Origin: an uncultured Clostridia bacterium
Lineage (GTDB): Bacteria > Bacillota > Clostridia > Oscillospirales > Oscillospiraceae
Direction of reading: 5' to 3'
Assembly: GCA_945948185.1 (NCBI GenBank)
Contig: CAMFAL010000009.1
Location: forward strand, 1 to 38,111
Length of the DNA: 38,111 bases
Every line of letters begins with the position of its first letter. Position 1 is the first letter of the stretch. The notes under the pieces were generated by a model. The model was not told where the DNA came from. It worked only from the letters and a program-made list of their open reading frames with translations, and searched no databases. Made by a program: the position numbers and the translations under genes. Below are positions 17,904-34,836 of this stretch, piece by piece.

Positions 17904-19577
17904 TTAGAACAGGCCGGTGATCTTGCCGTTCTCGTCCACGTCGATCTTCTCGGCGGCAGGCACCTTGGGCAGACCGGGCATGGTCATGATGTCGCCGGTG
18001 AGAGCCACCAGGAAGCCGGCACCGGCGGAGACCTTCAGGTTCCGGACAGTGATGGTGAAGTCCTTGGGGGCACCCAACTTGGTGGCGTCGTCAGAGAAGG
18101 AATACTGAGTCTTGGCCATGCAGATGGGCAGCTTGTCGAAGCCCAGGGCCTCCAGCTCCTTCATCTGCTTCCGAGCACCTGCTGTCAACTCCACGCCGTC
18201 AGCGTGGTAGATCTTGGTGGCAATGTCGTTCAGCTTCTTTTCGATGCTGTCCTCAGTGTCGTAGGCGAAGCGGAAACCGTTGGGCTGCTCGCACAGGCGG
18301 ATGACCTCTTCGGCCAGGGCAATGCCGCCCTCGCCGCCCTTGGCCCAGACCTCGGAAAGGGCCACATTGACACCCAGCTCCCGGCACTTGTCCTCGACGC
18401 GCTTCAGCTCGGCAGCGGTGTCGGTGGGGAAGGCGTTGATAGCCACCACGCAGGGCAGCTGATAGACCTTGGTGATGTTTTCCACGTGCTGCAGCAGGTT
18501 GGGCAGGCCCTTCTCCAGGGCTTCCAGATTCTCGGTGTTCAGGTCGGCCTTGGCCACGCCGCCGTGGTTCTTCAATGCCCGGACGGTGGCAACAACGACC
18601 ACCGCACTGGGAGTCAGGCCCGCCAGACGGCACTTGATATCCAGGAATTTCTCAGCGCCCAGGTCCGCGCCGAAGCCAGCTTCCGTGACGGCGTAGTCCG
18701 CCAGACGCATGGCCATCTTGGTGGCCATGACGGAGTTGCAGCCGTGAGCGATGTTGGCGAAGGGACCCCCGTGAATGAAGGCGGGCGTGCCCTCCAGAGT
18801 CTGGACCAGGTTGGGCTTCAGGGCGTCCTTCAGAAGAGCGGCCATGGCACCCTCGGCTTTCAGGTCGTGGGCGGTGACGGGCTTGCCGTCATAGGTGTAG
18901 GCCACCACCATGCGGCCCAGACGGGCCTTCAGGTCGGGGATGTCGGCGGACAGGCAGAGAACGGCCATGATCTCAGAGGCCACGGTGATGTCGAAGCCAT
19001 CCTCCCGGGGCACACCCTGCATCCGGCCGCCCAGACCATCCACGATGTTCCGCAGCTGGCGGTCGTTCATGTCCACACAGCGCTTCCAGGTGATGCGCTT
19101 GACATCGACACCCAGGGCGTTGCCCTGCTGGATGTGGTTGTCCAGCATGGCGGCACACAGGTTGTTGGCGGCGCCGATGGCATGAAAATCGCCGGTGAAG
19201 TGGAGGTTGATGTCCTCCATGGGCACCACCTGGGCATAGCCGCCGCCGGCGGCACCGCCCTTGACACCGAACACGGGGCCCAGAGAGGGCTCGCGCAGGG
19301 CGACCAGGGTGTTCTTGCCCAGCTTCCGCATGGCGTCGGCCAGACCTACGGTAGTGGTGGTCTTTCCCTCACCGGCGGGGGTGGGGTTGATGGCGGTGAC
19401 CAGGATCAGCTTGCCGTCACGGCGCTTGCTCTCCCGCAGCAGGCGGTAGTCCACCTTGGCCTTGTAGTTGCCGTAGAGCTCCAGGTACTCACGGTCTACA
19501 CCGGCAGTCTCGGCGATCTCGGTGATGGGCTTCATGGCGCAGGACTGGGCGATCTCAATATCGGACAGGATTTTCAT
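17904..19577 (-). CDS. fhs: Formate-tetrahydrofolate ligase
   Basis: A 557-residue enzyme of exactly the usual family length. It makes 10-formyl-tetrahydrofolate from formate, ATP and tetrahydrofolate, feeding one-carbon units to purines or the methyl branch of the Wood-Ljungdahl pathway. The nucleotide loop [11 protein letters not shown] is at 66-76, followed by the conserved [19 protein letters not shown] (94-112) and the [13 protein letters not shown] stretch. RBS GGAGG precedes the start at 19577. A TATATT sequence (19631-19636, leftward) may be its -10, but no good -35 was found. No other one-carbon gene lies nearby, so a dedicated acetogenic cluster is not indicated here. Confidence 0.98.
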
Positions 19578-19721
19578 GCAATGACCTCCATGTATCTTTA
19601 TAAAAAGGTATTACTTTTCCGTGCCTGAAAAATATACCACGAATCCTGCAGAAATGGAAGAGCCTTTTCAGAAGAAGAGAGAATATATTTTCACAACCTT
19701 AACATAAGAGAAGCTAATGGC

Positions 19722-19750
19722 TTGACAGGAAAAAACGGGTCAGCTATAAT
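19722..19750 (+). promoter_or_regulatory. Consensus promoter of ABC-F gene
   Basis: TTGACA (19722-19727), exactly 17 bp, TATAAT (19745-19750): both hexamers are perfect. Transcription should start near 19757, leaving a leader of about 220 bases before the coding start at 19978. The 400-bp gap between fhs and this gene is occupied by this promoter and the attenuator. A full-strength promoter before a gene held off by a terminator is typical of attenuated resistance genes. Confidence 0.85.
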
Positions 19751-19781
19751 GAGTGTGAATTTGAAGAAAAGGAGTGAAAGG

Positions 19782-19802
19782 ATGATTTCTGTTTCCTGCT
19801 GA
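19782..19802 (+). CDS. Leader peptide MISVSC (upstream ORF of attenuator)
   Basis: A six-codon ORF (Met-Ile-Ser-Val-Ser-Cys, stop TGA at 19800-19802) with a strong AAAAGGAG site ending 7 bases upstream. Its last codons and stop (TTTCCTGCT, 19792-19800) are perfectly complementary to AGCAGGAAA at 19853-19861. A ribosome stalled here by a peptidyl-transferase antibiotic would mask this segment and change leader folding. Seen: ORF, ribosome site, complementarity. Inferred: translation and stalling. Confidence 0.65.
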   Translation: MISVSC

Positions 19803-19962
19803 AATCGGATATGACGCTGTGCGATTCCCAGGAGGAGTCTGTCGGCGCCGGAAGCAGGAAAGAAATATATCCTTTTGCGCCGTGCCCGCATCGGCCCCGT
19901 TATAGGGGGACCATGCCGTTTCATGAGCCGTGGGAGCTTTCCTGCGGCTCATTTTGTATGCA
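19792..19962 (+). promoter_or_regulatory. Ribosome-mediated transcription attenuator of ABC-F gene
   Basis: Three segments compete. Segment 1, TTTCCTGCT (19792-19800, inside the leader ORF), pairs with segment 2, AGCAGGAAA (19853-19861). Segment 2 as GCAGGAAAG (19854-19862) pairs equally well with segment 3, CTTTCCTGC (19937-19945), and GCC (19847-19849) can add pairs with GGC (19946-19948). Segment 3 forms the loop and 3' upper arm of the terminator at 19923-19955. With 1:2 formed the terminator is free; with a ribosome stalled on segment 1, pairing 2:3 would break it and allow read-through. Known ABC-F genes such as vmlR and lmo0919 have attenuated leaders. Confidence 0.72.
19923..19956 (+). 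terminator. Attenuator terminator before ABC-F gene
   Basis: ATGAGCCG (19923-19930) pairs with CGGCTCAT (19945-19952); inner TGGGA and TCCTG continue the stem through two G-U pairs to a GCTT tetraloop, 13 pairs in all, followed by TTTTG. It lies before the ribosome site GGGAGGA (19964-19970), so it is a premature terminator and not the end of a gene. Confidence 0.78.
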
Positions 19963-19977
19963 TGGGAGGATGATGGG

Positions 19978-21456
19978 ATGTCTTTGATTCAGGTAGAGCA
20001 CTTGACATTTGCCTATCCGGGCAGCTATGATAACGTATTTGAGGATGTGAGCTTTCAGTTCGACGCAGATTGGAAGCTGGGTTTTCTGGGCCGGAACGGC
20101 CGGGGAAAGACTACCTTTCTGCGGCTGCTGCAAAAGCAGTACCCATACGGCGGCACCATCGCCGGAGTGCCGCCCTGTGCCTGTTTCCCCTATGAAGTGG
20201 AGGACAGGACGCGGGTGACGCTGGATATTCTGGGCGGGATTTGCCCGGCGGTGGAGGAATGGGAGTTGTTGCGGGAGACGGGCCTTCTGGGTGTGGACGT
20301 GGAAGCGCTGTACCGGCCCTTTGACACGCTTTCCAACGGAGAGCGGACCAAATGTCTGCTGGCGGCCCTGTTCTGCGGAGAGGACCGCTATCTTCTGATC
20401 GACGAGCCGACGAACCATCTGGACGACGCCGGACGGCGGGCGGTGGCGTCGTACCTGCGGGGAAAGCGTGGCTTTCTGCTGGTCTCCCACGACCGGGATT
20501 TCCTGAACGGCTGCGTAGAGCACATTCTGGCACTGAACCGGACCGGGGTGGAGGTTCAGAACGGAAATTTCTCCTCCTGGTGGGAGAACAAGGAGCGGCG
20601 AGATGCCTTTGAGCAGGGGAAGAACGACCGGCTCCAAAAGGAAGTCCGCCGTTTGCGGCAGGCAGCGGTCCGGACCTCCGATTGGTCTGACCGAGTGGAG
20701 GCCAGCAAGACCGGCACCCGGAATTCCGGCCTGCGGCCGGACCGGGGCTACATTGGCCACAAGTCCGCCAGGATGATGCAGCGGGCCAAGTCCATCGATG
20801 ACCGGCGGCAAAAGGCCCTGGAGGAAAAGGCGGGCCTGCTGAAGAACCTGGAGAAAACCGAGACCCTGAAGCTCCGGCCTCTGATGGCCCGGGGACGGCT
20901 GCTGGACCTGCGGGAGGTCTGCTTGTTCTATGGGGAAAAACGGGCCTGCGGCCCCCTGACCTTCCGGCTGGAGCCGGGGGAGCGGTTGGCCGTCCATGGC
21001 GGCAACGGCAGCGGAAAATCCTCGTTGCTGAAAATGCTATGCGGAGAGACGGAGATGACTACCACCGGTGTGCTGACAAAACTTTCGGGGCTGACCATTT
21101 CCTATGTGCCCCAGGATACCTCCCGCCTGCGGGGCAATCTGCGGGACTACGCCCGGAAAAGCGGCGTGGACGAGACATTGCTGTTGGCGATTTTGCGGAA
21201 GCTGGATTTTCCGCGGGAGCAGTTTGAAAAGGACATGGCGGACTGGTCCCAGGGACAGAAGAAAAAGGCGCTTATTGCCAGAAGTCTCTGCGAGAGCGCC
21301 CACCTGTATGTCTGGGACGAGCCGCTGAACTATATCGACGTGTGGTCCCGGATGCAAATTGAGAACCTGCTGCTGGAATTCCAGCCCACCATGGTGTTCG
21401 TGGAGCACGATGGGGCCTTCCGACGGAAGATCGCTACCCAGGAGGTGGAGCTGTGA
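19978..21456 (+). CDS. Lsa-type ABC-F ribosomal protection protein
   Basis: A 492-residue soluble protein with two ABC ATPase domains and no membrane segment. First domain: Walker A GRNGRGKT (38-45), signature LSNGE (118-122), IDEPTNHLD (141-149). A basic helical linker (about 200-300) is the antibiotic-resistance domain. Second: GGNGSGKS (341-348), WSQGQ (423-427), WDEPLNYID (446-454). GRNGRGKTTFLRLLQKQ and WDEPLNY-D closely resemble Lsa proteins. Such factors bind the ribosomal E site and displace lincosamide, streptogramin A and pleuromutilin drugs; this spectrum is predicted by family. The start at 19978 follows GGGAGGA; the earlier in-frame ATG at 19930 is inside the terminator. The attenuator leader strongly supports drug-inducible expression. 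Confidence 0.9.
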   Translation: MSLIQVEHLTFAYPGSYDNVFEDVSFQFDADWKLGFLGRNGRGKTTFLRLLQKQYPYGGTIAGVPPCACFPYEVEDRTRVTLDILGGICPAVEEWELLRETGLLGVDVEALYRPFDTLSNGERTKCLLAALFCGEDRYLLIDEPTNHLDDAGRRAVASYLRGKRGFLLVSHDRDFLNGCVEHILALNRTGVEVQNGNFSSWWENKERRDAFEQGKNDRLQKEVRRLRQAAVRTSDWSDRVEASKTGTRNSGLRPDRGYIGHKSARMMQRAKSIDDRRQKALEEKAGLLKNLEKTETLKLRPLMARGRLLDLREVCLFYGEKRACGPLTFRLEPGERLAVHGGNGSGKSSLLKMLCGETEMTTTGVLTKLSGLTISYVPQDTSRLRGNLRDYARKSGVDETLLLAILRKLDFPREQFEKDMADWSQGQKKKALIARSLCESAHLYVWDEPLNYIDVWSRMQIENLLLEFQPTMVFVEHDGAFRRKIATQEVEL

Positions 21457-21536: not shown

Positions 21537-22931
<1,395 letters not shown>

Positions 22932-33164: not shown

Positions 33165-33324
33165 TTTCTAGGGGAACGGCGAAAGCCTGCCGAAGGAGTG
33201 AAACTCTCAGGCGCCCGGATTCGGGCGGGGACTAGAAATGGATGTGGCTCTGGAGAAGCCCGGCGACGGGTACCGAAGGTGCAAGGCGGCGCAGCCGCTG
33301 AATCTCTCAGGTAAAAGGACAGAG
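33165..33324 (+). ncRNA. Tandem glycine riboswitch
   Basis: Two glycine aptamers in series. The first (33165-33238) is closed by TTTCTAG/CTAGAAA and holds the conserved GCCGAAGGAG...AACTCTCAGGC core. The second (33248-33324) is closed by CTCTG/CAGAG and holds TACCGAAGGTG...AATCTCTCAGGTAAAAGGACAGAG. A short linker joins them as in other glycine riboswitches. The switch lies directly upstream of an amino-acid symporter and is followed by an intrinsic terminator, so control is at transcription termination. Whether glycine turns the gene on or off cannot be settled by eye. Confidence 0.95.
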
Positions 33325-33328
33325 TAGG

Positions 33329-33372
33329 GAGATGCGGACGGGTCCGTCCGCGAATCTCTGTGCTTTCTTTTT
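33329..33372 (+). terminator. Glycine riboswitch expression platform
   Basis: GAGAT (33329-33333) and GCGGACG (33334-33340) pair with CGTCCGC (33345-33351) and ATCTC (33354-33358), followed by TGTGCTTTCTTTTT. CAGAG (33320-33324), the 3' half of the second aptamer's P1, could instead pair with CTCTG (33356-33360) in the terminator 3' arm. Confidence 0.8.
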
Positions 33373-33429: not shown

Positions 33430-34836
33430 ATGTTCGCATCTGTGGAATCCGCGCTGCTCGACGTCGTCGTCAAAATCAATACGTATCTGTCCAACTACAT
33501 CCTGGTCTTTCTGCTGATCGCTGTGGGCCTGTGGTACTCCATCAAGACCCGCTTTGTTCAGGTCCGCTGCTTCGGCGAGGGTATGAAGAAGGTATTCGGA
33601 AACCTGTCCCTGAACGGTAAGAAGCACGACAGCGGCATGACCTCCTTCCAGGCCCTGGCGACTGCCATCGCTGCCCAGGTGGGCACCGGCAACATCGTGG
33701 GTGCCTCCGGCGCCATCCTGACCGGCGGACCCGGCGCCATTTTCTGGATGTGGATCATCGCCTTCTTCGGAATGGCCACCATCTACGCGGAGGCCACGTT
33801 GGCCTTAAAGACCCGCGTTGTGGACAAGGACGGCACCATCCACGGCGGCCCCGTGTATTACATTACCACCGCGTTCAAGGGCGGCTTCGGTAAGTTCCTG
33901 GCGGGCTTCTTCGCCGTCGCCATCATCCTGGCCCTGGGCTTCATGGGCTGCATGGTCCAGTCCAACTCCATCGGCTCCACCTTCCAGACCGCCTTTGGCA
34001 TCCCCTCCTGGATTGTGGGTATCGCGCTGGTCATCATCTGCGCCTTTATCTTCCTGGGTGGCATGCAGCGCCTGGCCTCCGTTACTGAGAAGATCGTCCC
34101 CATCATGGCCGCCATCTTCCTGGTGGGCGGTCTGGTGATCCTTGTTGTCCGCATCAAGTATCTCCCCGCTACCTTCGGCATGATCTTCAAGTATGCCTTC
34201 CAGCCCCAGGCCATCATCGGCGGCGGTTTCGGCTATGCCATCAAGACCGCTATCAGCCAGGGCGCAAAGCGCGGCCTGTTCTCCAATGAGGCCGGTATGG
34301 GCTCCACCCCCCACGCACACGCTCAGGCCAATGTGAGCCATCCCCACGACCAGGGTGTGGTGGCCATGATCGGTGTGTTCATCGACACTTTCGTGGTGCT
34401 GACCCTGAACGCCCTGGTGATCATCTCTACCCTGTACACCTCCGATGGCATCCTGGCTGCCGGCGTAATCCCCAAGGGCATTGGCAAGGCCAACCTGGCG
34501 CAGACTGCCTTCGGCACCGTGTTCGGCCAGAGCTTCGGCGCGGCGTTTGTGGCCATCTGCCTGTTCTTCTTCGCCTTCTCCACTGTGCTGAGCTGGAACA
34601 TGTTTGGTAAGATCAACGTGATCTATCTGTTCGGAAAGAAGTCCGCGGCGGTCTATTCCGTCATCGCCCTGGTGTTCATCTTCCTGGGCACCCTGATGAG
34701 CAATGACCTGGTGTGGGAGCTGACCGATATGTTCAACAACCTGATGGTTATTCCCAACGCCATCGCCCTGTTCGCCCTGACTGGCATGGTGGTCAAATCC
34801 TTTGCAGAGCGGGACAACAGCAAGCTGAGCAAGTAA
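33430..34836 (+). CDS. Alanine/glycine:cation (Na+) symporter, AGCS family
   Basis: A 468-residue transporter with about eleven helices, standard for AGCS. Landmarks: TRFVQVRCFGEGMKKVF near the start, ALATAIAAQVGTGNIVGASGAILTGGPGAIFWMW (sodium and substrate region), RGLFSNEAGMGSTPHAHA (about 280-297) and SWNMFGK in a late helix. It takes up alanine or glycine with sodium. The upstream glycine riboswitch points to glycine as the physiological substrate, or at least the regulating one. RBS AGGAGG precedes the start. It is monocistronic with a strong terminator. Confidence 0.96.
   Translation: MFASVESALLDVVVKINTYLSNYILVFLLIAVGLWYSIKTRFVQVRCFGEGMKKVFGNLSLNGKKHDSGMTSFQALATAIAAQVGTGNIVGASGAILTGGPGAIFWMWIIAFFGMATIYAEATLALKTRVVDKDGTIHGGPVYYITTAFKGGFGKFLAGFFAVAIILALGFMGCMVQSNSIGSTFQTAFGIPSWIVGIALVIICAFIFLGGMQRLASVTEKIVPIMAAIFLVGGLVILVVRIKYLPATFGMIFKYAFQPQAIIGGGFGYAIKTAISQGAKRGLFSNEAGMGSTPHAHAQANVSHPHDQGVVAMIGVFIDTFVVLTLNALVIISTLYTSDGILAAGVIPKGIGKANLAQTAFGTVFGQSFGAAFVAICLFFFAFSTVLSWNMFGKINVIYLFGKKSAAVYSVIALVFIFLGTLMSNDLVWELTDMFNNLMVIPNAIALFALTGMVVKSFAERDNSKLSK

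Follow-up and report, generated by a model that had tools for sequence, protein, structure and literature searches.

A probable ribosome-controlled transcription attenuator ahead of an Lsa-type ABC-F gene of an Oscillospiraceae genome, with relatives before ABC-F and Cfr-family genes

An uncultured Clostridia bacterium of the Oscillospiraceae carries, on contig CAMFAL010000009.1 of assembly GCA_945948185.1, a gene for an Lsa-type ABC-F ribosomal protection protein, and it is the leader of this gene that concerns us here. The window, by which we mean the whole stretch of DNA analysed (38,111 nucleotides of the forward strand), holds the gene downstream of a short upstream open reading frame (uORF), a set of competing RNA segments and an intrinsic terminator. 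ABCF_Lsa_all is the best-scoring NCBIfam family of the protein (689.6 bits over residues 1-492 of 492), while ribo_prot_ABC_F is passed with 420.9 bits for a cut-off of 380. As the curated ABCF_Lsa_all cut-off of 750 is not reached, we call the protein Lsa-type and not Lsa. The features of the locus are the following, in window coordinates:

19722-19750, plus strand: sigma-A-type promoter (TTGACA at 19722-19727, 17-nt spacer, TATAAT at 19745-19750), 12 of 12 consensus matches
19769-19774, plus strand: Shine-Dalgarno (SD) sequence of the uORF, AAGGAG, seen in the sequence; a ribosome site is also present in relatives
19774-19800, plus strand: 5' arm of the anti-antiterminator, 25 pairs with 19853-19878 in RNAfold, 19791-19792 being unpaired
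19782-19802, plus strand: uORF ATGATTTCTGTTTCCTGCTGA, MISVSC-stop, the presumed ribosome-holding site, seen in the sequence; relatives have homologous uORFs of 1-8 codons
19792-19800, plus strand: segment 1, TTTCCTGCT, partner of segment 2 (sequence, RNAfold, comparison of relatives)
19815-19847, plus strand: apical hairpin of the anti-antiterminator (RNAfold)
19853-19862, plus strand: segment 2, AGCAGGAAAG, partner of segment 1 or of segment 3 (sequence, RNAfold, compensatory changes in both duplexes)
19853-19878, plus strand: 3' arm of the anti-antiterminator (RNAfold)
19888-19916, plus strand: middle hairpin, in the interval from segment 2 to segment 3 (RNAfold)
19922-19945, plus strand: 3' side of the antiterminator (RNAfold of 19801-19945; minimum for RNA ends 19943-19947 when the ribosome site is masked)
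19923-19952, plus strand: stem-loop of the intrinsic terminator, with 13 pairs and a loop of 4 nt, -21.8 kcal/mol (RNAfold)
19952-19957, plus strand: interrupted U-tract, TTTTGT (sequence)
19964-19969, plus strand: SD of the ABC-F gene, GGGAGG (sequence)
19978-21456, plus strand: Lsa-type ABC-F ribosomal protection protein, 492 residues, intact frame (NCBIfam profiles, open frame)

The original prediction for this DNA had placed here a perfect sigma-A promoter, a six-codon uORF with its ribosome site, and three mutually exclusive segments, the last of them part of a 13-pair terminator. All lie where it put them, GGAG of the ribosome site occupying 19771-19774 and the AUG following 7 nt further on; a promoter, a short uORF with its SD and an intrinsic terminator thus precede the ABC-F gene. 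Folding of 19757-19962 with RNAfold gives three structures: the anti-antiterminator topped by its apical hairpin, the middle hairpin and the 13-pair terminator. The 5' arm of the first takes in the final base of the SD, the start codon and nearly all uORF codons, and 19771-19772 additionally pair with 19880-19881 in the full-length fold. In the predicted antiterminator, segment 3 (CTTTCCTGC, 19937-19945) pairs with 19854-19862, and parts of 19872-19884 pair with 19922-19936, making a helix of more than nine pairs that also occupies the 5' arm of the terminator. The two nine-pair duplexes that had been proposed are therefore present, but the first is only a portion of a 25-pair helix and the antiterminator is longer. 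In these folds the anti-antiterminator that contains the uORF is exclusive with the antiterminator (a transient minimum), itself exclusive with the terminator. That such an arrangement is hard to explain by chance was well judged: an exact 8-nt triple, with one segment complementary to both an upstream and a downstream copy, is present, and 1 of 2000 dinucleotide shuffles equals it.

How a ribosome might tip this balance was modelled by masking 19767-19797, the site of a ribosome with the AUG in its P site, and by folding RNAs whose 3' end was moved from 19925 to 19971 in steps of 2 nt. The pairing of 19854-19862 with 19937-19945 then becomes the minimum-energy state at 3' ends 19943, 19945 and 19947 only. 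The expectation that a ribosome on the uORF favours the antiterminator thus holds in these predicted folds for ends 19943-19947, and not for the full-length fold, which remains the terminator. Because the full-length masked leader does not settle into the antiterminator at equilibrium, the switch would have to act kinetically. A polymerase at the U-tract 19952-19957 holds the last RNA bases, and by inference the free RNA end should at that moment lie near 19943-19947.

We consider it highly probable, judging from these models, that the leader is a ribosome-controlled transcription attenuator, and that what it most likely senses is arrest at the uORF start codon. In the drug-free cell, the ribosome would translate the tiny uORF and depart, and segments 1 and 2 would close the long hairpin over it; segment 3 would stay unpaired, the terminator would fold and transcription would end near 19955. 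An antibiotic that freezes the ribosome at the start codon, or just past it, would leave the 5' arm of the hairpin covered, so that segment 2 could pair with segment 3 before synthesis of the terminator is complete. With the antiterminator formed, the polymerase would continue into the ABC-F gene, the product of which would clear the drug from the ribosome. The event sensed would be start-codon arrest, as caused by pleuromutilins, lincosamides and streptogramin A, rather than arrest specific to a peptide. Elements, exclusive folds, conservation, compensatory changes and independence from the peptide were computed here; it is from them that we infer translation of the uORF, stalling, read-through, the identity of the drugs and resistance. 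In this way elements, folds and conservation support, at the level of a model, the original claim that a ribosome controls attenuation of transcription ahead of an Lsa-type ABC-F gene.

Control might also be exerted mainly on translation, the leader hiding or freeing the ABC-F ribosome site in the full-length mRNA, partly as in CplR and VmlR, where both levels are combined (PMC10201436, PMC9226507). The SD region of the ABC-F gene is indeed predicted to be partly paired. However, the predicted accessibility of 19962-19981 is nearly the same in the free and the masked leader, and this SD lies outside the terminator stem, which makes translation attenuation unlikely as the main control.

Of 86 genomes of the genus, 39 have an ABC-F homologue (E 1e-60 or better), and the upstream region can be read for 38 of these genes, that of G001 beginning inside the gene. 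Thirty regions hold a canonical leader, seven a diverged leader with uORF MRI ahead of an Lsa-type gene (L036, L037, L040, L042, L127, L129 and L130; by eye, unscored), and one (L038) none. Two loci display repeats before the Lsa-type gene, each copy with the segment 3 motif: three tandem copies of the terminator region at 700-1500 of L015, and two at 900-1500 of L028. Beyond the genus, the best 80 of 536 loci were taken, giving together with the genus loci 118 upstream regions, or 105 after deduplication. A gapless search for 8-mer triples chose unrelated triples in some of the 105 and none in others, and was superseded by an anchored search, for which six anchors were placed manually and three regions discarded. 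The three-segment layout was found in 83 of the 105 distinct regions (29 of them from the genus, its thirtieth canonical leader being that of L015, which lies farther upstream). Its hosts include Paenibacillus, Cohnella, Sporomusa, Desulforamulus, Desulfosporosinus, Clostridium and Synergistales, this last case (L078) being a single metagenome-assembled genome that could be a contaminant.

The covarying changes that the original prediction proposed to seek in homologous leaders are found, as compensatory changes in both duplexes. Among 46 distinct triples, segments 1 and 2 pair in 370 of 414 cells and segments 2 and 3 in 397 of 414, and neither figure is reached by any of 1000 shuffles; the anchors were picked with regard to complementarity and the species are not independent, so that these values are inflated, which counts against us. 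In each duplex one inner pair is C-G in 22 of the 46 triples and U-A in 17, the other 7 having a G-U form. In minimum-energy folds of the 83 leaders, the pairs of the anti-antiterminator appear in 78, those of the antiterminator in 81 and both in 77, while the hairpin fold has z < -2 in all 83 (median -5.16, 40 shuffles each). An alignment of 26 rows, picked by the analyst out of the 83 leaders, pairs in 91.8% of 572 cells, as compared with 45.4-61.0% when partners are slid by 1-3 columns; its paired percentage, its 15 cells with two-sided changes and its covariation score are matched by none of 500 shuffles.

A covariance model was built on 26 of these leaders, including that of the window, and these match it by construction, which also counts against us. 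In the genus it gave 19 matches in the 86 genomes (E 0.01 or better, strict filters), all before the ABC-F homologue, 5 of the 19 matched genomes having supplied sequences to the model. In the class it gave 15 matches in 341 genomes (E 1e-5 or better), the window included, and the 14 others all precede an Lsa-type gene according to tblastn.

What is conserved is the leader as an RNA, not its peptide: the uORF varies from 1 to 8 codons across relatives. This bears directly on another explanation, that the ribosome is arrested by the nascent MISVSC, with Ser-Cys before the stop, in the manner of ErmC or MsrD. Ser-Cys-stop does recur in many relatives (MIILSC, MINLSC, MRNFSC, MRDLSC, MKSASC). Yet the Ser-Cys of MISVSC is read from TTTCCTGC, and the motif recurs since TTTCyTGC is segment 1 itself. 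The same nucleotides lie past the uORF stop, which precedes segment 1, in L091 and L096 (both MK), L104 (MR) and L105 (MF), as they do in leaders where the stop directly follows the AUG. L102 and L108 read segment 1 in another frame, as F-L-A (VRKFLA, VRTFLA), while in L019 (MISIFR) and L034 (MRISR) the peptide ends in FR or SR and segments 1, 2 and 3 change together. The conserved peptide characteristic of leaders of the ErmC or MsrD kind is thus not seen, the RNA segment staying while the peptide varies. The peptide appears to be a side effect of the base pairing.

Further cases come from Paenibacillaceae, the family of Paenibacillus psychroresistens. There, an Lsa-type gene is present in 86 of 104 genomes, at 101 places (E 1e-150 or better), of which 98 upstream regions were used, three partial matches being excluded; 76 of the 98 show the layout. 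All 76 were assigned an ATG start, ATG having been sought before GTG and TTG, and with a looser pattern 2 of 76 anchors lack ATG. In 71 distinct contexts, 58 have a uORF reduced to AUG-stop (40 UAA, 14 UAG, 4 UGA), encoding the initiator methionine alone, and 13 have a longer one. Typically GGAG ends 11-12 nt ahead of the AUG there, farther than in the window, where the distance is 7 nt. Base pairing may be what maintains the stop itself, since GUAA, GUAG or GUGA can pair with the UUAC that follows segment 2, and selection for a stop is for this reason not proven; but 10 of the 13 regions with a non-stop second codon have UUAC as well, and the bases that would face the AUG differ from one listed tail to another. 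MISVSC is accordingly rejected as an arrest peptide, in that the peptide varies, shrinks to AUG-stop or shifts frame while the RNA segment stays, and we judge arrest on a nascent peptide improbable here. As for homologues that keep the gene and not the ORF or the pairing, which the original prediction saw as a danger to itself, the outcome is mixed: the leader goes unrecognised in 22 of 105 regions, yet the start codon is kept in the 76 Paenibacillaceae leaders, with the reservation given above for the looser pattern.

The covariance model also points to a second target. In 75 of 103 Paenibacillaceae genomes it gave 112 matches (E 0.001 or better), or 104 without antisense duplicates. Considering genes within 1500 nt, 79 of these 104 copies stand directly before an Lsa-type gene, 22 before a gene for a Cfr-family 23S rRNA methyltransferase and 3 before neither. 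Cfr-family genes above the TIGR04432 cut-off occur in 31 of the 103 genomes (three of the proteins, scanned singly, score 618, 629 and 623 bits for a cut-off of 550); 22 of the 31 have the leader directly in front (loci L243-L258, L260, L261 and L263-L266), 5 lie behind a leader-bearing Lsa-type gene and 4 show neither arrangement. The uORF is AUG-stop in 22 of 22 Cfr leaders, 18 read by script and 4 by eye. Between leader and Cfr-family gene, with the leader oriented on the plus strand, L250 (342-461) and L252 (341-460) retain the C-terminal 40 residues of an ABC-F protein, and in L255 (351-712) there are pieces from its first 193; no ABC-F piece was found at E 1e-4 in the other 19 of the 22 loci. 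These remnants suggest that ABC-F was lost from an operon of leader, ABC-F and Cfr. A 36-codon ORF (MFEVVNVHVNRSLSVSTVHDQTKRMPEHYPSIDRCT-like), which contains a GTGAACCG...CGGTTCAC hairpin, also lies between the terminator and the Cfr-family gene in L253, L246, L260 and others; it is perhaps a second leader.

The drug spectra of Cfr-family and Lsa-type proteins overlap, comprising lincosamides, pleuromutilins and streptogramin A. These drugs belong to the spectrum of a Paenibacillus Cfr orthologue in particular (PMC5155152). The 79 Lsa-type and 22 Cfr-family copies and the spectrum that they share support a sensor of start-codon arrest by lincosamides, pleuromutilins and streptogramin A. We would give even chances to a wider proposal: that this is a widespread and undescribed family of leader RNAs in which the start codon is the sensor, AUG-stop requiring no peptide bond, and that in Paenibacillaceae it controls both ABC-F and Cfr-family genes, the latter probably after loss of ABC-F from the leader-ABC-F-Cfr operon. 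If this is true, an AUG-stop leader would respond to every drug that arrests ribosomes at initiation, and one leader RNA before two unrelated kinds of genes would show how a sensor passes between resistance genes.

The leader might, on the other hand, be constitutive, giving a short transcript or small RNA and a fixed read-through into ABC-F, the segments merely stabilising the RNA. At equilibrium the terminator is formed in both states, as this would have it, and three Paenibacillaceae copies lack an intact target gene in the stretch fetched (L259, before a short ABC-F fragment; L262 and L267, with neither gene found). Against a constitutive role, one segment retains two pairing partners, each of the two duplexes having changes on both sides, the part from SD to AUG remains in the hairpin across families, and the leader travels with resistance genes of a single drug spectrum; we find such a role most improbable. 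Chance complementarity in a GC-rich leader, where short complementary runs are common and a lone terminator is ordinary, is vanishingly improbable given the rarity of the triple among shuffles and a layout seen in 83 of 105 regions and in independent lineages.

Other observations weigh against attenuation by start-codon arrest. The U-tract of the terminator, TTTTGT, is short and interrupted. The masked full-length leader still folds the terminator at equilibrium, the terminator winning from end 19949 on. By the patterns used, a leader is not recognisable in 22 of the 105 regions (cut contigs, MRI leaders, diverged forms and L015 are among these 22) nor in 22 of the 98 Paenibacillaceae regions, and the covariance model matches just 19 of the 39 genus genomes that hold the gene. 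L017, with a leader 88% identical to that of the window, has neither helix in its minimum-energy fold; the first helix is missing from the folds of L019, L022, L029 and L103, and the second from that of L080. Two measures of the 26-row alignment are unremarkable, the 5 pairs with two-sided changes being equalled by 75 of 500 shuffles and the 22 further pair types by 43 of 500. RNAalifold, run on 71 mixed leaders, yielded only 7 pairs, probably since MAFFT failed to align the variable apex; it is for this reason that pairing was counted on anchored segments and on the 26-row alignment instead. Finally, the ABC-F protein scores under the cut-off of the Lsa family.

Some further features of the locus deserve mention. 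The leader has no Rfam match above gathering score, the two weak ones, with E of 3.2 and 4, being far below it, and in the loci of five relatives there is one sub-threshold match, outside the leader; a known Rfam RNA is thereby ruled out as its identity. Neither the window leader nor one Cfr-type leader gave a match when searched against plasmids. A DNA match to the leader in G043 turned out to be merely a ribosome-site-like stretch ahead of another coding region. Upstream of the leader and divergent from it lies a gene (17904-19577, minus strand) that we take from its sequence to be a formate-tetrahydrofolate ligase, and upstream of it, at 19578-19660, a GGTATTAC...TGAAAA.TATA stretch with a similar copy in L016, L017, L024 and L026. 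The convergent gene downstream (21537-22931, minus strand) is presumably that of asparaginyl-tRNA synthetase. Farther away, a glycine riboswitch aptamer (33240-33332, Rfam RF00504, 62.4 bits) stands ahead of a gene at 33430, by its look a sodium:alanine/glycine symporter.

With reference to known systems, this kind of attenuator and its layout are already known from VmlR (PMC9226507) and CplR (PMC10201436), and the window leader is not novel in layout. The original prediction had taken leader peptide and layout as the new part; the layout is theirs and the peptide follows the pairing. What goes beyond them is the deep conservation of the RNA with compensatory changes, the non-conserved peptide and the Cfr-family genes as a likely second target, which we did not meet in the open-licence literature searched. 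That literature, which leaves outside the subscription papers and with them much Term-seq work, yielded no AUG-stop uORF in bacterial resistance leaders and no leader common to Lsa-type and Cfr-family genes. The default minimum of uORF4u is three codons (PMC10219788), so that AUG-stop leaders would be missed at default settings. They are a natural test of the need for a leader peptide in antibiotic sensing, and they suggest that none is needed. The Lsa-type ABC-F genes of gut Oscillospiraceae would for their part be under a probable drug-responsive switch, and resistance may be hidden without drug.

Reportedly, transcription in the leader of L. monocytogenes lmo0919 ends prematurely in a drug-dependent manner, ahead of an ABC-F gene. 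The vmlR leader of B. subtilis (uORF MIN) resembles ours in its uORF within an anti-antiterminator, its antiterminator and its intrinsic terminator before an antibiotic-resistance (ARE) ABC-F gene. Its start-codon dependence is experimental and ascribed to initiation arrest; lincomycin also induces with three other uORF peptides, though less well with one of them, and induction by linezolid and erythromycin is weak (PMC9226507). It differs in its ABC-F subfamily (ARE2), in the length of the uORF, which has six codons in the window, and in its SD, which is single-stranded before SL-1, whereas the edge of the SD in the window, and more of it in relatives, is inside the hairpin (PMC9226507). Unlike vmlR, the window leader has a single motif with three-way complementarity, which is kept from family to family. 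The cplR leader of C. difficile (uORF MRI) likewise has a 5' hairpin over the uORF and a terminator/antiterminator switch; the start codon of its uORF is required, and lincomycin and retapamulin induce it (PMC10201436). Its terminator stem hides the cplR SD (PMC10201436), by contrast with the window, where the ABC-F SD is past the terminator, and its tripeptide MRI is the uORF of the seven diverged genus relatives. The uORFs known before ABC-F genes include MIN, MK[L/Q], MR[I/M] and MAGN, the last being the consensus for lsa(A) of E. faecalis, which belongs like the window protein to ARE3/Lsa and has a different uORF (PMC10201436). In the upstream region of cfr on pSCFS1, uORFs have also been proposed to control a Cfr-family gene, but there two overlapping uORFs would form a translational switch (PMC8752094), whereas the 22 Cfr leaders of Paenibacillaceae appear as AUG-stop transcription attenuators.

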